Source: Agromyces atrinae
GTDB taxonomy: Bacteria > Actinomycetota > Actinomycetes > Actinomycetales > Microbacteriaceae
Direction: 5' to 3'
NCBI RefSeq assembly: GCF_013407835.1
Contig: NZ_JACCBI010000001.1
Location: 3,038,001-3,102,000 of the forward strand
Length of the DNA: 64,000 nt
Shown here: positions 34,770 through 51,488 of the stretch, one piece after another
Numbering within the stretch: position 1 is the stretch's first letter
Layout of the letters: every line of letters starts with the position of its first letter
Program-made: the position numbers and the translations under genes
Notes under the pieces: generated by a model
Told to the model about the DNA's origin: nothing
Seen by the model: the letters and a program-made list of their open reading frames with translations, nothing else
The model's database searches: none

Positions 34770-34816
34770 GGTGTTGTCCAATCGGTGCTGAGGTGATTGC
34801 TCGATGACTTCGTGAA

Positions 34817-34838: not shown

Positions 34839-34857
34839 GATAGTCTAGGCTTATCAC

Positions 34858-35424
34858 ATGACAACTTCTGAACACTCGTCGACGGGATACTGGTACCCCG
34901 ACCGTGTTCAGCGCGGAGTCGAGATCCTGAACGCCCTGCGCGACTATCGCGACGCGGAATCCGACATGCGTCGACGCACTCGGTCGTCGATGAAGATGGG
35001 CGAGACCGACCTCCTCGCCATCCGCTTCCTGCTCCAGGAGCAGAAGCGCGGCAACGACGTCACGCCTAAAGAGCTCGCGGCGCGACTCGACATCTCGAGC
35101 GCATCGACGACGGTCCTCATCGACCGACTCGTCGCTTCGGGCCATGTCGAGCGCCAGCCGAATCCCTCCGATCGCCGCTCGATCATCGTCGTGCCCACAG
35201 GTCACACCGACGGCGAGGTGCGAGCCACGCTCGGATCGATGCACCGCCGCATGATGAGCGTCGTCGAATCGCTCGGCGAGCAGGAGGCCGCGGTCATCCT
35301 CGGCTTCCTCCGCGAGATGCGGAAGGCCGTCGACGCGAGTGAGGCCGAGGTCATGGCCGAGCTCGCCGAGCAGGCGGATGACGCCGGCGATGCCGCGCGT
35401 CATACCGACGCGGTGCGCGCGTGA
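34858..35424 (+). CDS. MarR family transcriptional regulator
   Basis: A 188-residue regulator with the MarR winged helix-turn-helix. KMGETDLLAIRFLLQEQKRG leads into the recognition region VTPKELAARLDISSASTTVL and the wing GHVERQPNPSDRRSIIVVPT. Long terminal helices (RATLGSMHRRMMSVVESLGE and beyond) form the dimer interface. The C-terminal tail is acidic. The stop overlaps the start of a Ser/Thr kinase gene (GTGA), a very unusual partner. It likely autoregulates through the adjacent palindrome. Confidence 0.87.
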   Translation: MTTSEHSSTGYWYPDRVQRGVEILNALRDYRDAESDMRRRTRSSMKMGETDLLAIRFLLQEQKRGNDVTPKELAARLDISSASTTVLIDRLVASGHVERQPNPSDRRSIIVVPTGHTDGEVRATLGSMHRRMMSVVESLGEQEAAVILGFLREMRKAVDASEAEVMAELAEQADDAGDAARHTDAVRA

Positions 35425-43389: not shown

Positions 43390-44160
43390 ATGATCCAGCT
43401 CGCCATCGACGACGGTCTCGCCGAGATCGTGCTCGACGCCCCCGAGCGGCGGAACGCACTGGGCCTCGCCGACCTCGCCGAACTCGACGCCGCCTATGCA
43501 GAGGCCGAACGTGCCGGGGTGCGTGCGCTGCTGCTGCGCGGCTCGGGACGGGCGTTCTGCGCGGGACGCGACATCTCGGGCGTCGACCCGCGCACCGATG
43601 ACGTGCTCGGGTACCTCGACGGGGGCGTCAGGCCGCTGCTCGAACGCATGAGCGCGTTCCCGGCCCCGACGTTCGCCGTCGCGCACGGCGCGTGCCTCGG
43701 TGTCGGGCTCGGCCTGCTCATCGCGACCGACGTCGTCTACGTCGCCGATGACGCCCGCATCGGATCGCCGTTCGGCGCTCTCGGCGCGACCCTCGACTCG
43801 GGCGGTCACGCGCTCTTCGTCGAGCGACTCGGCGCGCACGCGACCCTCGACCTCATCTACACGGGGCGCATGCTCACGGGAGCCGAGGCCGTGCGTGCGG
43901 GGCTCTTCTCCCGCGCGTTCCCGGCCGACGAGGTGACGGATGCCGCGCGCGACGCCGCCCGGGTCGCAGCGACCGGACCCACGCAGGCGTTCCTCGCGTC
44001 GAAGCGTCTCGTCGCCGAGCTGCGCGACGCCCGCCTCGGGCTCTGGGATTCGATGCAGCACGAGAGCCGCGCGCAGGCCGCGCTCGCCGCGACGGATGAC
44101 TATCGCGACGGTTTCGCCGCATTCCAAGAGAAGCGCCCGCCGCGTTTTGTCGGGCGCTGA
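43390..44160 (+). CDS. paaG: enoyl-CoA hydratase/isomerase (PaaG-like)
   Basis: A 256-residue crotonase-family enzyme, ending the paaABCDE operon. In E. coli PaaG isomerises the ring epoxide to oxepin-CoA, and that role is inferred here from position. Motifs are VLDAPERRNALGLADLAELD, GSGRAFCAGRDISGVD, GACLGVGLGLLIATDVVYVA and IGSPFGALGATLDSGG. ATG 43390 has GGAGGAG five bases upstream. It lies 10 bases after paaE. A second crotonase gene at 26497 serves the lower pathway; the two assignments could be swapped. Confidence 0.8.
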   Translation: MIQLAIDDGLAEIVLDAPERRNALGLADLAELDAAYAEAERAGVRALLLRGSGRAFCAGRDISGVDPRTDDVLGYLDGGVRPLLERMSAFPAPTFAVAHGACLGVGLGLLIATDVVYVADDARIGSPFGALGATLDSGGHALFVERLGAHATLDLIYTGRMLTGAEAVRAGLFSRAFPADEVTDAARDAARVAATGPTQAFLASKRLVAELRDARLGLWDSMQHESRAQAALAATDDYRDGFAAFQEKRPPRFVGR

Positions 44161-44246
44161 GGGTTGCGCACGGCCCGCTTCCCACGGCCCGCTTCCCGCT
44201 TCCCGCGTCCCGCTTCTCACTTTTCGCCCGCACGTCCCGCTTCCCG

Positions 44247-44732
44247 CGAGAGGTCAATCCACCCCGGTGCACGGCACCCCGCACCCCGAGCGATCGACCT
44301 CTCGAGATGCAACCTCACGCCGAAAGGTCAATCCACCCCGGTGTGCGGTGGCCCGTACCCCGGTGTATTGACCTTTCGACCGTCATCCGGCGCGTTGCTC
44401 CGCCCGCGTGCGCGATTCACCCTCCCCGAGAGGTCAATCCACCCCGGTGTTGGATGCCCCACACCCCGATGTATTGACCTTTCGACCGTCATCCGGCGCG
44501 TTGCCCCGCCCGCGCGGGTCGCCCCGCCCGCGCGCGCGATTCCCCCTCCCCGAGAGGTCAATCCACCCCGGTGTGCGGTGGCCCGCACCCCGATGTATTG
44601 ACCTTTCGACCGTCATCCGGTGCGTTGCCCCGCCCGCGCGGGTCGCCCCGCCCACGCGCGAATCAGCCCCTCCCCGAGAGGTCAATCCACCCCGGTGTTG
44701 GATGCCCCACACCCCGATGTATTGACCTTTCG
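44247..44732. repeat. tandem array of five family B hairpins
   Basis: Five elements of 58 bp lie at 44247-44304, 44321-44378, 44427-44484, 44551-44608 and 44675-44732. Each opens CGARAGGTCAATCCACCCCG and closes GTATTGACCTTTCG (the first has GATCGACCTCTCG). From copy 2 on, the spacers also repeat (CGTCATCCGGYGCGTTG and GCCCCGCCC), giving periods of 106, 124 and 124 bases. Loop type alternates between GCGGTGGCCCG (copies 2, 4) and TGGATGCCCC (copies 3, 5). The 44161-44761 gap has no gene. Confidence 0.85.
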
Positions 44733-44761
44733 AGCGGCATCCGGCGGGCCGGCGCGCCCGA

Positions 44762-46757: not shown

Positions 46758-47339
46758 CTACGCCGCGGGAACCTTCGCGGGCCGAGCGGGTCGAGCCGCC
46801 CGCGGCCGCGCGAGGCCGCGCACGACGCCCGTGCGTTCGACGCGGCGGGCGAGCAGCAGGCCGAGCCACGTCGCGGCGATCTCGCTCGCGATGATGACGA
46901 GCACGAACGTGGCCTGCATCGGCACCGACCACGCGTCGACTCCGAGGGCTGCCATCGCGGTGAACGAGTAGAGCAGTCCGAAGACCGCGGCGCCGACGTA
47001 GAAGACCCACGCGCGCCAGTACCGGTACAGGCTGATCGCAAACGGAATCTCGAGCGCGATCGCGATCATGAGGTTCGTGAGCAGCGAGCTCGCCCCGTAC
47101 ACGGTCGTGAACGACGTGATGACGCTCGCGAAGAGCGCGGCGAGGATCGCGACGCCGGGGCGGCGCAGCAGCGCGAGCACGAACACGAACGGGATGAGCC
47201 AGATGCCGGTCATCGCCGCGTACGCGAGCGGCATGACGACCGAGATCGCCGCGGCGATGTTGTTCGCCGGAATGAGCAGCACGCCACCGGCGGCGCCGAT
47301 CGCGGCGCACGTGAGCAGCATCCGTGTCGTGGTCTTCAT
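46758..47339 (-). CDS. ECF transporter S component (YkoE-like)
   Basis: A 193-residue membrane protein with about five to six helices, such as MLLTCAAIGAAGGVLLIPAN, WLIPFVFVLALLRRPGVAIL and MQATFVLVIIASEIAATWLG. This is the layout of substrate-binding S components, and it resembles the YkoE/PF09819 group. YkoE itself is tied to hydroxymethylpyrimidine/thiamine uptake. Here no thiamine riboswitch is seen, and the operon carries a siderophore-interacting protein and an iron box, so an iron-related substrate is more likely. It is last in the operon; GGAGACGAC precedes ATG 47339. Confidence 0.75.
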   Translation of the reverse strand: MKTTTRMLLTCAAIGAAGGVLLIPANNIAAAISVVMPLAYAAMTGIWLIPFVFVLALLRRPGVAILAALFASVITSFTTVYGASSLLTNLMIAIALEIPFAISLYRYWRAWVFYVGAAVFGLLYSFTAMAALGVDAWSVPMQATFVLVIIASEIAATWLGLLLARRVERTGVVRGLARPRAARPARPAKVPAA

Positions 47340-47420
47340 GTCGTCTCCGAGGGTCGGTCGTGCGAGGTCGTGCAGGGTCGTGCGGGGTCGGTCGTGCGGG
47401 TGCTGCGGCGCGGCGAGAAC

Positions 47421-48284
47421 TCAGGCGCTCGTGAGCGCCGCGTCGATCGCGGGTGCGCCCTTCGGCAGGCGCCAGTATCCGCAGAAGCTGACGGCCGTCT
47501 TCGGCCATCCGTTCTCGGTCACGAGCAGACGACGGATGCCTGTGGCGAGGCCGCTCTCGCCGACGGCGAAGGCGTGCGCGCGCTCGGGGCCGGCCGGCAG
47601 CGCCTCACGCGCCGCGGCGTAGGCGAGCGAGCCGACACGTTCCTCGTGGCCGCGCACGATCCAGCGGATCTCGACTCCGTCGGGTCTCGCGAACTCCTGG
47701 GCGTCCGCGGCATCCGTGATCTCGACGATCGCGAGGCCGCGCGCGTACGAGGGGAGCGAGCCGCAGATGCCCGCGACGGCGGGAAGCCCGGTCTCGTCGG
47801 CGACGAGCAGATGCCAGTCGGTGCCGACGGCGGGGTCGTAGCCGATGCCCTCGTCGAGCACGCCGACACGGTCGCCGGGCGTGCACGAGAGCGACCACTG
47901 CGCCGCGACGCCCTCGAGTTCACCGCTCGCGCCCTCGTGCAGCACGAAGTCGATGTCGAGCTCGGCACCGTGTTCGGCCGTCGCGGGGCGGAACGCGCGC
48001 ACCGTGTAGTTGCGCATCGTCGGGCGCACATCCTTGGGGGTGCGGAGCAGTTGCGCGTATCCGGCCAAGCCATCCGTGCGGGGCAGGCGCACGTCATCCA
48101 CCCCCTCGGGCGGAAGGAAGAGGCGGAACCACTGGTCGAAGCCGCGGTGCGCGAACGCCGCGATCTCTCCGCCGCCGAGCGTCACGCGGGCGAAGCCGGG
48201 GCTCACGCGCTCGGTGCGCAGCACTTCGAGCTCGAGGGGCGCCGTGCGCTCGGCCTTCTTCGCCATGCTGTGGGTCTTCGCCAT
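47421..48284 (-). CDS. siderophore-interacting protein (ferric-siderophore reductase type)
   Basis: A 287-residue ViuB/SIP-type flavoprotein. The FAD domain has FARVTLGGGEIAAFAHRGFD, then the flavin motif MRNYTVRAFRP. The C-terminal NAD(P)H domain has ADETGLPAVAGICGSLPSYA, AVGESGLATGIRRLLV and the closing VSFCGYWRLPKG. Such proteins release iron by reducing imported ferric siderophores, or in related cases heme. It lies between EcfT and the S component in one operon. AAGGAGACGAC precedes ATG 48284. No signal peptide: a cytoplasmic protein. Confidence 0.9.
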   Translation of the reverse strand: MAKTHSMAKKAERTAPLELEVLRTERVSPGFARVTLGGGEIAAFAHRGFDQWFRLFLPPEGVDDVRLPRTDGLAGYAQLLRTPKDVRPTMRNYTVRAFRPATAEHGAELDIDFVLHEGASGELEGVAAQWSLSCTPGDRVGVLDEGIGYDPAVGTDWHLLVADETGLPAVAGICGSLPSYARGLAIVEITDAADAQEFARPDGVEIRWIVRGHEERVGSLAYAAAREALPAGPERAHAFAVGESGLATGIRRLLVTENGWPKTAVSFCGYWRLPKGAPAIDAALTSA

Positions 48285-48314
48285 GTCGTCTCCTTGGTCG
48301 GCCGAGCGCGAGGC

Positions 48315-49199
48315 TCAGGCTCCGATGTCGGTGCGGTCGGGGGTGAGTGCTGTGAGCCCCGCGCTGAGCGCCCACACGTAGAGGCCCGCGCTCGCGGCCC
48401 AGAAGAGCACGACGAACACGGTGTCACGCGTGCGCCACGGCACGAGGTGACGCTCGGTGCGGGTGGCGTGGGCGCCGAACGCGCGGGCATCCATCGCGAG
48501 GGCGACGCGCTCGGCGTGGCGGATGGCGCTCGCGAGCAGCGGGATCGCATACCCCAGGATGCGGCGCACGGCGTTGATCGGCCCGCGCCCGGAGTCGGTG
48601 CCGCGCACGCGGTGCGCCGCGCGGATCACCTCGAGCTCGTGGCCGAAACGCGGCACGAAGCGGTACGCGGCGAGGGCGGTGTAGCCGATGCGATACGGCA
48701 CGCGCAGGTTCTGCACGAGCGCGCGCACGAGGTCGGGGCCGGTCGAGGTCGCGCCGGCGAGCAGCGAGAGCAGCAGCAGGCTCGTGATGCGGAGCGCCGT
48801 CGCGAGGCCCGCGAGGTAGGCCGCGACGGTGAAGCGCCAGTCGCCGATCGCGAGGAGAACCGTGTCCGACCCGGCGGCGGCGTCGAGGCGCGACGGATCG
48901 ATCCAGACGCCGAAGCTCACGCCGAGCACGGCGACCGCGAGGGGCAGCCCGAGGAGCAGGATGGCGAGGGTACGCGGCCGCAGGCGTGCGCCGACGAGCA
49001 GGAGCAGCAGCGAGAACAGCGAGAACGCCAGGGGGATCGGGATGCCGCGTGAGAAGACGAGCAGCACCATGATCGGCACGGGCGCGAGCACCTTGGCGAG
49101 CGGGTTGAGGCCGTAGAGGAACGCGGCGCGACTGCGCGGAGCGGTCGTCGCGTAGGGGTCGAGGGCGGCCGCGGGCGACTGCACGGCGGCGGTCGTCAT
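48315..49199 (-). CDS. ECF transporter transmembrane protein EcfT
   Basis: A 294-residue transmembrane subunit that couples ATP hydrolysis to S-component movement. It has several hydrophobic helices (APVPIMVLLVFSRGIPIPLA, AAYLAGLATALRITSLLLLS). In the coupling region it has LVQNLRVPYRIGYTALAAYR and VIRAAHRVRGTDSG, then RHAERVALAMDARAFG, the Ala-Arg-containing motifs that contact the ATPase. ATG 49199 overlaps the ATPase stop by four bases and is preferred over an upstream start in the ATPase gene. Confidence 0.87.
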   Translation of the reverse strand: MTTAAVQSPAAALDPYATTAPRSRAAFLYGLNPLAKVLAPVPIMVLLVFSRGIPIPLAFSLFSLLLLLVGARLRPRTLAILLLGLPLAVAVLGVSFGVWIDPSRLDAAAGSDTVLLAIGDWRFTVAAYLAGLATALRITSLLLLSLLAGATSTGPDLVRALVQNLRVPYRIGYTALAAYRFVPRFGHELEVIRAAHRVRGTDSGRGPINAVRRILGYAIPLLASAIRHAERVALAMDARAFGAHATRTERHLVPWRTRDTVFVVLFWAASAGLYVWALSAGLTALTPDRTDIGA

Positions 49200-50950
49200 G
49201 CGACGTCCTCGACAGGAGCAGGAGCAGGGACGACCGGCACCGGCACGGGAACGGGCAGGTCCGTGAGTCGCGACAGCGAGTTCCACGACGGATGACGCAC
49301 GAGCGAACGCATCGCGCGAGCGAGGGGCGGTACCCGCAGCCCGGCGGCCTCGATCGCGGGGCCGGCGAGAACCGCCTCGGTCTCGCCCGCGGCGACGACC
49401 CCGCCGTCCTGCATGACGACGATGTGACTCGCGTGCTCGGCGACGAGCTGCAGGTCGTGGGTGACGACGAGCACCGTCGTGCCCGATCGGTTGAGTGTCG
49501 AGAGCATGTCGAGCAGTTCGGCCGCGCGCTCGCGATCCTGACCGAACGTCGGTTCGTCGAGGGCGAGGACGGGCGCCCCGGCGATGAGCGCCGTGCCGAC
49601 CGAGAGTCGTCGCTTCTGCCCGCCCGACAGCAGGAAGGGGTGCTGCTCGCGCAGCTCGTCGAGCCCGAACCGGCGAAGCATCTCGTCGACCCGGTGCGCG
49701 CGCTCGGCGTCATCCACCCCCTGGATGCGGAGTCCGTGCTCGAGCTCGTCGGCGACCGAGTGGGTGATGAACTGGTGCTCAGGGTTCTGGAAGACGAAGC
49801 CGACGTGGCGGGCGAGGGTGCGCGGGTCGGTGCGTGACGGGTCGAGGCCGTCGATCTCGACGGCGCCGACGGGCGGGGGGATGACACCCGCGATCGCCTG
49901 CAGCAGCGTGGTCTTACCCGCGCCGTTCGTGCCGACGATCGCGACGAAGTCACCCGCGGCGATGTCGAGCGAGACGCCGTCGACGACGATCGGCCCGCGC
50001 TTGCCGCCGCGCCGCACGGCGAGGTCGCGGACTCGCACGATCGGGGGGCGGGCCTCGGTCGCTGCAGCGACGCGTGCCGTGGGTTCGGGCAGTTCGGCCA
50101 CGGCGTCGAGGGCGACCGCGAGCTCGTGCGGGGTCAGCGGCAGCGGGTCGAGGTCGATGCCGGCATCCGCCAGTGCGAGGGCCGCGAGCGTCGAGACCGG
50201 GAGCCAGACGCCGAGCGCGAGCAGCTCGCGCGCGTGCCCGCGCATGATCTCGTCGGTCGGGCCGTCGAGCACGAGGCGCCCGTCGGCACCCAGCACGACG
50301 ACGCGGTCGACGATGTCGATCGCCGCATCGAGGTTGTGCTCGACGAGCACGATCGCGTGACCGCCCTCGGCCGCGAGCGAACGCAGCACCGCGTAGACCT
50401 CCTCGATTCCGGCGGGGTCGAGGTTCGCGGTCGGTTCGTCGAGGACGAGCAAGGGGGCGTTCATCGCGAGGGCGCAGGCGATCGCCAGGCGCTGACGCCC
50501 ACCGCCCGAGAGCTTGTCGGGGTTCTCGCTGCGGCGCTCCCAGAGGCCGACGTCGCGGAGGGCCTGCTCGGCGCGCTCGAGCACGACGGCCTTCGGCTGC
50601 AGCTGGTTCTCGGGGGCGAAGCACACCTCGTCGAAGAGGGTTCCGGTGACGATCTGGGCGTCGGGGTCTTGGAAGACCATCGAGGCGTGGGCGCTCAGCT
50701 CGCCGACCCGCGCGTTCGCCGTGTCGAGCCCGGCGAGGATCACCGTTCCGTCGAGCTCGGCGGGCACGTCGTGCGGCACGAGCCCGTTGATCGAGAGGGC
50801 CAGGGTCGACTTGCCGCAGCCGCTCGGCCCGAGGAGCAGCACGACCTCGCCCGCTGCGACGTCGAACGAGACCTCGTTCGGGGTCGCTCGAACAGCGCCG
50901 TCGTGGCGAATGCTCACGCGATCGAGCTGCAGGAGAGAGGGGGAGGTCAT
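49196..50950 (-). CDS. fused ECF transporter ATPase with two ABC domains
   Basis: A 584-residue protein with two ABC ATPase domains in one chain, equal to the EcfA1-EcfA2 pair. Domain 1 has Walker A GPSGCGKST (41-49), signature LSGGGRQRLA and Walker B LLVLDEPTANLD. Domain 2 has Walker A GTNGAGKTT (about 340-348), signature LSGGQKRRLS and Walker B VLALDEPTFGQD. All catalytic motifs look intact. It is the first gene of the operon. ATG 50950 lies 23 bases downstream of the iron box; the frame remains open upstream, but conserved sequence starts here. Confidence 0.9.
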   Translation of the reverse strand: MTSPSLLQLDRVSIRHDGAVRATPNEVSFDVAAGEVVLLLGPSGCGKSTLALSINGLVPHDVPAELDGTVILAGLDTANARVGELSAHASMVFQDPDAQIVTGTLFDEVCFAPENQLQPKAVVLERAEQALRDVGLWERRSENPDKLSGGGRQRLAIACALAMNAPLLVLDEPTANLDPAGIEEVYAVLRSLAAEGGHAIVLVEHNLDAAIDIVDRVVVLGADGRLVLDGPTDEIMRGHARELLALGVWLPVSTLAALALADAGIDLDPLPLTPHELAVALDAVAELPEPTARVAAATEARPPIVRVRDLAVRRGGKRGPIVVDGVSLDIAAGDFVAIVGTNGAGKTTLLQAIAGVIPPPVGAVEIDGLDPSRTDPRTLARHVGFVFQNPEHQFITHSVADELEHGLRIQGVDDAERAHRVDEMLRRFGLDELREQHPFLLSGGQKRRLSVGTALIAGAPVLALDEPTFGQDRERAAELLDMLSTLNRSGTTVLVVTHDLQLVAEHASHIVVMQDGGVVAAGETEAVLAGPAIEAAGLRVPPLARAMRSLVRHPSWNSLSRLTDLPVPVPVPVVPAPAPVEDVA

Positions 50951-50972
50951 GGGTTCGTTTCGACGAAGTGGC

Positions 50973-50991
50973 TTAGGACAGCCTAACCTTG
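50973..50991 (-). promoter_or_regulatory. IdeR/DtxR-type iron box upstream of the ECF operon
   Basis: TTAGGACAGCCTAACCTTG agrees with 15 of 19 positions of the classical actinobacterial iron-box palindrome (TTAGGTTAGSCTAACCTAA). It lies 23 bases before the first gene of the ECF operon, where a repressor would block transcription. By analogy the operon should be repressed by Fe(II)-bound IdeR/DtxR and switched on under iron limitation. Confidence 0.78.
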
Positions 50992-51068: not shown

Positions 51069-51488
51069 ATGGGAGTCAGTTACGTGGAGTTCGAAGACGA
51101 CGCCGGCGTTCTGCAGCGCTATCGTCGCCACGCGAACGGCCGCGGCCTGGTCTCGGCGAAGGCCAAGGCCGATGCGACCGCATTCGTTCACGCTTCGGCG
51201 TACGTCGATCCGGGGGCGGAGGTCGGCCGCGGAGCCCGCATCGAGTCGGGAGCGTGGATCGACCGCGACGCCATCATCGGCGAGGGTGCGATCATCGACG
51301 CCAACGCGCACGTCGGCCGCGGAGCCATCGTCTCGCGCGGCGCACGCATCGGCATCCGCGCCGCGATCGGAGTCGACGCACGCATCGCGCCCGGCGCTCG
51401 CGTCGAACAGGACGTCACGGTGCCGCCCGGCGGAATCGTCGACTCGGGGCTCGGCACGGGCCGACGCGCCCACGACCTCGCCGCGTAG
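51069..51488 (+). CDS. hexapeptide-repeat left-handed beta-helix protein
   Basis: A 139-residue protein. After a short N-terminal segment (GVSYVEFEDDAGVLQRYRRH) nearly the whole chain is hexapeptide repeats, such as ASAYVDPGAEVGRGARIESG and AWIDRDAIIGEGAIIDANAH. These build a left-handed parallel beta-helix. Such proteins are often acyltransferases or carbonic-anhydrase-like, but no catalytic loop is visible and it may be structural. ATG 51069 has a strong GAGGAGG site 10 bases before. It is divergent from the ECF operon; the iron box lies in the shared gap but nearer the ECF side. Confidence 0.8.
   Translation: MGVSYVEFEDDAGVLQRYRRHANGRGLVSAKAKADATAFVHASAYVDPGAEVGRGARIESGAWIDRDAIIGEGAIIDANAHVGRGAIVSRGARIGIRAAIGVDARIAPGARVEQDVTVPPGGIVDSGLGTGRRAHDLAA

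Follow-up and report, generated by a model that had tools for sequence, protein, structure and literature searches.

The ECF operon and its gene products

The stretch of DNA analysed here, referred to as the window, comprises 64,000 nucleotides of Agromyces atrinae (NCBI RefSeq assembly GCF_013407835.1, contig NZ_JACCBI010000001.1, positions 3,038,001 to 3,102,000). The genome is a single contig of 3.65 Mb, on which the window spans G000:C1:3038001-3102000. On its minus strand, from 50950 to 46758, lies an operon with the gene order AA'-T-SIP-S, encoding an energy-coupling factor (ECF) transporter and a siderophore-interacting protein (SIP). It is preceded by an iron box of the IdeR/DtxR type (50973..50991, minus strand). 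The recurrence of this arrangement in relatives suggests an undescribed uptake route for chelated iron.

The first gene (49196..50950) encodes a fused EcfA-EcfA' ATPase of 584 amino acids (aa), which matched the NCBIfam models TIGR04520 (ECF_ATPase_1) and TIGR04521 (ECF_ATPase_2) above cut-off. We placed its start at ATG 50950, because the relative in L047, a locus of the same genus that repeats the full gene set of the window, also aligns from there; the start at 51070 in the list of open reading frames (ORFs) would put the iron box inside the gene. The ATPase gene overlaps by 4 bases with that of the transmembrane coupling protein EcfT (48315..49199, 294 aa), which reached 91.2 bits against CbiQ (PF02361) and scored below the CbiQ equivalog cut-off of TIGR02454. 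The SIP gene follows after 30 bases (47421..48284, 287 aa) and, after a further 81 bases, the gene for the S (substrate-binding) component (46758..47339, 193 aa), which belongs to the lineage denoted S2 below and matched PF09819 (YkoE family) with 59.5 bits (cut-off 25.2). The domain matches thus confirmed all four genes at the positions given in an earlier, sequence-based preliminary description of this DNA, including its assignment of ECF ATPase domains, EcfT, SIP and a YkoE-like S component. A scan for promoters and terminators found none.

The SIP belongs to a family of FAD-dependent ferric-chelate reductases. It contains both PF08021 (FAD_binding_9) and PF04954 (SIP), and its sequence resembles ferric-siderophore reductases of known structure (4yhb, 2gpj and ViuB 8c4l), whose entries are titled siderophore-interacting, iron-chelator or vibriobactin utilization proteins. 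The segment RNYTVR fits the flavin motif RxYTxR. Such reductases are normally encoded beside binding-protein-dependent ATP-binding cassette (ABC) importers or siderophore genes, whereas the SIP of the window adjoins an ECF S component.

The Pfam names for the S and T families, "ABC_cobalt" and CbiQ, might be taken to mean that the operon imports a free or weakly chelated metal (Fe, Co, Ni or Mn) through an ECF system of the Cbi/Nik kind. The available text of PMC6828968 likewise describes a chloroplast ECF module, ABCI10/11/12, proposed for transition metals; it resembles the window operon in that its ECF A and T proteins are linked with metal homeostasis, but its S component and substrate are described there as not known, and that text mentions no SIP or iron box. 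Against metal import, the only credible solved relative of the window S protein was YkoE (5edl, E 3.8e-4), and no CbiM or NikM chain matched it up to E 10 in the PDB search. Nor did inspection of the gene list by eye reveal a fifth operon gene that could be CbiN or NikN, and a SIP would have no clear role in the import of Fe(II), Co or Ni. Cobalt and nickel uptake were set aside on gene content, and we regard metal import in general as very improbable.

The iron box and its regulon

The box reads CAAGGTTAGGCTGTCCTAA on the minus strand (50991-50973) and agrees with TTAGGTTAGSCTAACCTAA at 15 of 19 places, as the preliminary description had it; its distance from the first gene, given there as 23 bases, is 22 bases before ATG 50950. 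An 18-letter pattern written from the box (16 fixed bases, two N, up to 3 mismatches) had a single match in the window and none in 100 dinucleotide shuffles, a result that weighs less than the other evidence since the pattern was derived from the site itself. With a relaxed pattern, also written after the box had been seen, the box was one of three sites in the 3.65-Mb genome at zero mismatches; with up to 2 mismatches, there were 23 strand-wise matches compared to 3 for the reversed control.

A genome-wide search with the 19-base consensus (up to 3 mismatches) yielded 7 sites, compared to 0 for the reversed control. These seven, a small set chosen by similarity to the consensus and excluding the window box, were used to build a matrix, on which the window box scored 19.3, higher than each of ≈290 random windows of the same stretch. 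Six of the seven training sites are at iron genes, encoding Peripla_BP_2 (PF01497) binding proteins, HtaA proteins and a SIP-domain protein. The last is a 146-aa protein (L107:4642-5079; G000:C1 ≈1821641-1822078) that has the SIP domain PF04954 with no FAD_binding_9 match, and its gene starts 9 bases after a strong box (31.2). The seventh box (L108:5242-5260; G000:C1:1893241-1893259; score 27.8) lies near divergent genes, one of which encodes a protein of 1837 aa that we take to be the large subunit of glutamate synthase. The genome encodes IdeR itself (L110:3725-4489; match to IdeR 1fx7 at E 5.7e-79), and its second DtxR-family gene appeared MntR-like by eye.

The core GTTAGGCT was nearly invariant in an alignment of 25 upstream regions from the genus, and the second half-site of the box was mostly kept as well. 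Conservation amounted to 1.45 bits per column within the box, compared to 0.76 upstream of it and 1.09 downstream; the best-kept columns of the alignment belong to the downstream part, in the leader and the first ATPase codons. A −10-like hexamer, TAGGCT (50985-50980), falls within the box and is included in the core, so part of the conservation of GTTAGGCT may reflect the promoter.

To count boxes across relatives, ECF operons were called Fe-type if their ATPase was at least 45% identical to that of the window, a definition independent of the box. A box was counted if it scored at least 12 on the matrix and lay between −250 and +10 of the start of the ATPase gene, or of the S gene where one lies immediately upstream; 138 loci were mapped, and six same-genome repeats were removed. 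A box preceded 75 of 93 distinct Fe-type operons, whereas the 1,808,714 bp examined contained 7 other sites; these counts, like those below, refer to related sequences and not to independent events. Three of the 7 other sites (in L122, L146 and L187) also precede ECF operons, beyond the counted regions, and one is in the window itself, at 34840-34858 (matrix score 15.5), where it is flanked by an ORF on the minus strand that ends at 34781 and one on the plus strand that starts at 34858. The 13 operons with a distant ATPase comprised 11 of the thiamine pyrophosphate (TPP) type described below, L084 and an unrelated ABC gene in L082; only L084 had a box. In other families of the order, all eight fetched loci (L209-L216) had a box near the first gene, with best scores of 14.8-22.7.

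We considered the possibility that the window box is a chance match and that the operon is not regulated by iron. The box has four mismatches to the consensus and is weaker than the seven best of the genome, and the hexamer offers another reason for part of its conservation. However, chance would hardly place boxes before 75 of 93 related operons with just 7 further sites in 1.81 Mb, nor keep the second half-site within the genus; we thus consider a chance match extremely unlikely. Control by the iron box is supported across the family by the matrix, the alignment, the operon counts and the presence of IdeR, and on these sequence data the operon is very likely to be regulated by iron.

S lineages, the SIP gene and thiamine

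A tree was built from 138 S proteins of 150-280 aa scoring above 45 bits. One group, with 100/100 support, contained the S protein of a separate S-AA'-T operon of the same genome (L117) and its relatives, the TPP type. Outside this type, most S proteins fell into two lineages with moderate support (90/92 and 84/93): S1, encoded in most cases just upstream of the ATPase gene, and S2, usually found next to a SIP gene. The window S protein is an S2, and the second, solo S gene of the genome (G000:C1:173179, L102) is an S1. For comparison of residues, 13 odd or long-branch rows were dropped, three of them from the 41 rows of the S2 clade, leaving 38 S2, 76 S1 (71 distinct) and 11 TPP-type proteins.

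Counting SIP genes on the same strand within less than 300 bases, 30 of 38 distinct S2 genes adjoined one, compared to 0 of 71 S1 and 0 of 11 TPP-type genes; one SIP-adjacent S row (L071) fell outside S2. A SIP gene occurred in 35 of 95 distinct loci with an Fe-type ATPase and in none of 13 with a distant ATPase. A common order in Microbacterium is S1-box-AA'-T-SIP-S2, and a locus from another family of the order (L213) reads box-AA'-T-S-SIP. The conserved SIP-ECF linkage that the preliminary description had suggested looking for therefore does recur, in 35 of 95 distinct related loci and in L213. SIP is an optional partner of Fe-type ECF operons; a stricter link of SIP to S2 alone was softened, since nine loci carry a SIP with only S1 upstream. 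In one locus, L048:6827-8392, three S-component genes surround a single iron box.

By its components, the window operon would ordinarily be labelled a thiamine transporter. It resembles YkoEDC (5edl), a group I ECF system for thiamine or its hydroxymethylpyrimidine (HMP) moiety, in having a PF09819 S component, a fused EcfA-A' ATPase, EcfT and the residue corresponding to Trp49. We therefore weighed the possibility that the operon imports a vitamin or cofactor (thiamine/HMP, flavin, cobalamin or another) whose uptake is raised as iron-dependent biosynthesis fails, with SIP as a general flavoreductase. Known ECF substrates are indeed mostly vitamins (PMC7299338, in the part available), YkoE, the PF09819 member of solved structure, binds thiamine, and the S2 proteins keep Trp49 in 37 of 38 cases (W47 in the window) along with an invariant glutamate, E97.

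Regulation and binding residues argue against thiamine. The genome holds three TPP riboswitches: one precedes the L117 operon, whose S protein matches YkoE at 5.6e-26, and the other two precede, by eye, thiM-thiE-thiD-like genes and a transporter of the major facilitator superfamily type. Thiamine is unlikely as the cargo of the window operon because the genome has its own ykoE-type operon behind a riboswitch. A TPP riboswitch was found at 10 of 11 TPP-type operons (L117 and nine of ten relatives, the exception being L090), and none of these 11 had an iron box. Conversely, the window has an iron box and no TPP riboswitch, and no riboswitch reached the gathering score in 32 distinct loci with non-TPP S genes (35 sources, L047, L048 and L071 repeating L006, L007 and L029), although the start of the operon was not always inside the scanned sequence, since most sources have 1.5-kb flanks.

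According to the available text of PMC5037267, YkoE contacts thiamine through Tyr46, Trp49, Glu77, Gln95 and Asp131, and the substitution Q95W abolishes binding. The place of Gln95 is occupied by Gln in all 11 TPP-type proteins and in none of 38 S2 proteins (Trp in 29, Ile in 7, Phe in 2); among the best 120 of 596 database relatives, it was Trp in 119 and Tyr in one. In the window S protein it is Ile92. Tyr46, Glu77 and Asp131 are also absent from the window protein, but they were dropped as discriminating contacts because actinobacterial TPP-type proteins vary there too, and the Asp131 column is unsure.

On the separate riboswitch operon, the absence of a riboswitch from the window and the loss of Gln95, thiamine/HMP uptake by the window operon was rejected, and the doubt that the preliminary description had cast on the thiamine label proved justified by both regulation and the Gln95 place. 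Import of some vitamin or cofactor by this operon is, more broadly, unlikely. For the SIP-linked S clade, the labels "YkoE" and "cobalt" are likely wrong.

Candidate cargo and related modules

The preliminary description had read the operon as an ECF system that is regulated by iron and takes up a ferric siderophore, heme or some other compound linked to iron. The regulation of the operon and the recurring SIP link support this, and the operon probably imports an iron compound. We lean slightly towards an ECF importer that is repressed by IdeR, needs no binding protein and brings in a ferric chelate for SIP to reduce inside the cell; the likeliest chelate would be a ferric (xeno)siderophore. 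The identification of a ferric siderophore in particular, like the assumption that SIP acts on the cargo of this importer, is drawn from the regulation and the SIP neighbour, and we consider it evenly balanced.

In this mechanism, IdeR-Fe(II) would sit on 50991-50973, over the −10 region, and repress the operon when iron is sufficient; when iron is short, the operon would be expressed. S2 would then bind the chelate at the outer membrane face and dock on EcfT; toppling of S2 would release the cargo inside, paid for by ATP hydrolysis in EcfA-A', and SIP would reduce Fe(III) with FAD, letting Fe(II) go. Toppling of S components, the chemistry of SIP and the mode of action of IdeR are established knowledge. 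The same module probably also serves a second S protein, encoded by the S1-lineage gene at G000:C1:173179.

Other genomes point to such sharing. One Fe-type EcfT (E 8e-116 to 9e-75) is encoded in each of seven genomes whose S genes, or SIP-S2 pair, stand alone (G133, G056, G093, G140, G077, G079 and G070), G077 adding a weak, distant one. The SIP-S2 pair L055 has no local ECF genes, and L066 and L069 are lone S2 genes, each with its own box; in all three genomes an Fe-type EcfT is found elsewhere. The iron-controlled ECF module thus seems to serve S proteins in trans. Relatives of the window S protein occurred in 45 of 150 genomes of the family (E 1e-8, TPP-type included). Among the best 80 of 389 EcfT relatives, 24 were Agromyces loci, in which EcfT was followed by SIP and S in two (L118, L121), by S only in two (L119, L122) and by neither in 20.

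Several observations weigh against a SIP-assisted ferric-chelate importer. The score of the window box, 19.3, is below those of the seven training boxes (25.0-32.7), and no box reaches the threshold in 18 of 93 Fe-type operons, including the SIP operons L085, L154 and L156; neither the lone pair L055 nor the solo S1 of this genome has one. SIP is not adjacent to 8 of 38 S2 genes, nine checked loci have SIP and no S2, and no SIP was seen in the stretch examined at 60 of 95 distinct Fe-type loci, some contigs being short. The S2 profile had no match within the stretch in any of 18 Agromyces loci searched that carry only AA and T (of the 20 such loci, L149 ends early and L128 was outside the search), and at the Gln95 place the window protein has Ile and not the Trp of most S2 proteins. 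Finally, the genome already contains classical binding-protein importers with iron boxes, so the ECF system would be one route among others, and the substrate of SIP could be the cargo of those importers.

The operon might instead import heme or another metalloporphyrin, in the manner of LhaSTA, with SIP serving another importer or reducing the released iron. As described in the available text of PMC7299338, heme has lately joined vitamins and Ni/Co as a known ECF substrate, and LhaSTA of Staphylococcus lugdunensis is an ECF system under an iron repressor that acts in iron acquisition, so that an iron-repressed heme ECF transporter is already on record; a second iron-linked heme ECF system is cited there (Verplaetse 2019), with little similarity in S sequence. 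The Agromyces genome also has a heme oxygenase gene whose start is preceded by a box scoring 14.5. However, LhaSTA is controlled by Fur and not IdeR, it belongs to the isd heme locus, and no SIP is mentioned for it in that text. The genes around the window operon, which encode an FKBP-type isomerase (PF00254), a luciferase-like monooxygenase (PF00296) and, by eye, a hexapeptide-repeat protein, do not resemble a heme-uptake locus. The partner enzyme here is a SIP, and a heme oxygenase was not seen next to these operons, though no search was aimed at it. Heme also has another likely route, through the boxed heme oxygenase and the HtaA and binding-protein genes. There is no invariant or nearly invariant His or Met in S2, although Tyr124 and Cys11, which are invariant, could still supply a ligand. 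Taken together, we judge heme import by this operon to be decidedly unlikely. Two of the HtaA-domain proteins with strong iron boxes are large (1543 aa in L106 and 1038 aa in L105, near G000:C1 2985400 and 2585050), the second also having Ig domains, and are likely to act in surface heme capture.

Among the literature matches listed (titles and the starts of abstracts, with few subscription journals covered), none described a SIP-linked or DtxR/IdeR-controlled ECF transporter, and a paper on the S-component fold (PMC11109136) mentions no siderophore, heme or YkoE in its available part. If true, this iron-repressed clade and its ferric-chelate reductase would give ECF transporters a further substrate class and iron an entry route that needs no binding protein, and one S family, PF09819, would have been retooled from thiamine to iron.

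The genus Microbacterium offers a case for such uptake. In the available text of PMC7438953, desABCD is described as present and genes resembling desferrioxamine transporters as few, and strains of M. flavescens and M. phyllosphaerae are cited as growing only with desferrioxamine B (Eto et al. 2013). A record of M. flavescens, from a strain other than those of Eto et al. 2013, contains the S1-box-AA'-T-SIP-S2 set (L160). Of 198 genomes searched in the order, 21 had relatives of an S2 from M. flavescens (E 1e-10, S1 included). The window-type operon is a testable candidate for desferrioxamine uptake in Microbacterium. More tentatively, we propose for the Micrococcales at large an IdeR-controlled ECF module, common to two S lineages, that would import ferric siderophores without a binding protein, with SIP beside the siderophore-specific S component; it would be the first ECF system for siderophores and a candidate for hydroxamate-siderophore uptake in siderophore-dependent Microbacterium.

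In a more distant cousin, L084:1115-7599, a box that agrees with the consensus at all 19 places precedes a divergent S-AA'-T set, which is followed by two ABC half transporters. Among the matches listed, the best single-subunit PDB matches include YbtQ (8vsi, 2.4e-81) and IrtB (1.6e-75) for one half and IrtA (6.6e-104) for the other; double-domain eukaryotic exporters outscore these because both of their halves match. IrtAB and YbtPQ carry out ATP-driven siderophore import without a binding protein, and IrtA has its own SIP domain; their fold is of the exporter type, unlike ECF. Since the L084 ATPase is just 38% identical to that of the window, the locus supports the theme and not the window substrate. 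The ABC neighbours in L080 and L083 appeared to be ordinary exporters by eye and were not used as evidence, and inspection by eye revealed no iron theme among the conserved neighbours of other S-AA-T operons.

At L216:7082-14442, the genes after an iron-boxed S-AA'-T set, read by eye, encode an AMP-ligase fragment, an exporter of the ABC-2 type and a methyltransferase; the locus may be a small siderophore-like cluster. A radical-SAM-like neighbour at L051:10086-11663 apparently carries an intein insertion (by eye). In the window itself, the region 44160-44760 resembles direct repeats, judging from recurring peptides in overlapping ORFs of both strands.

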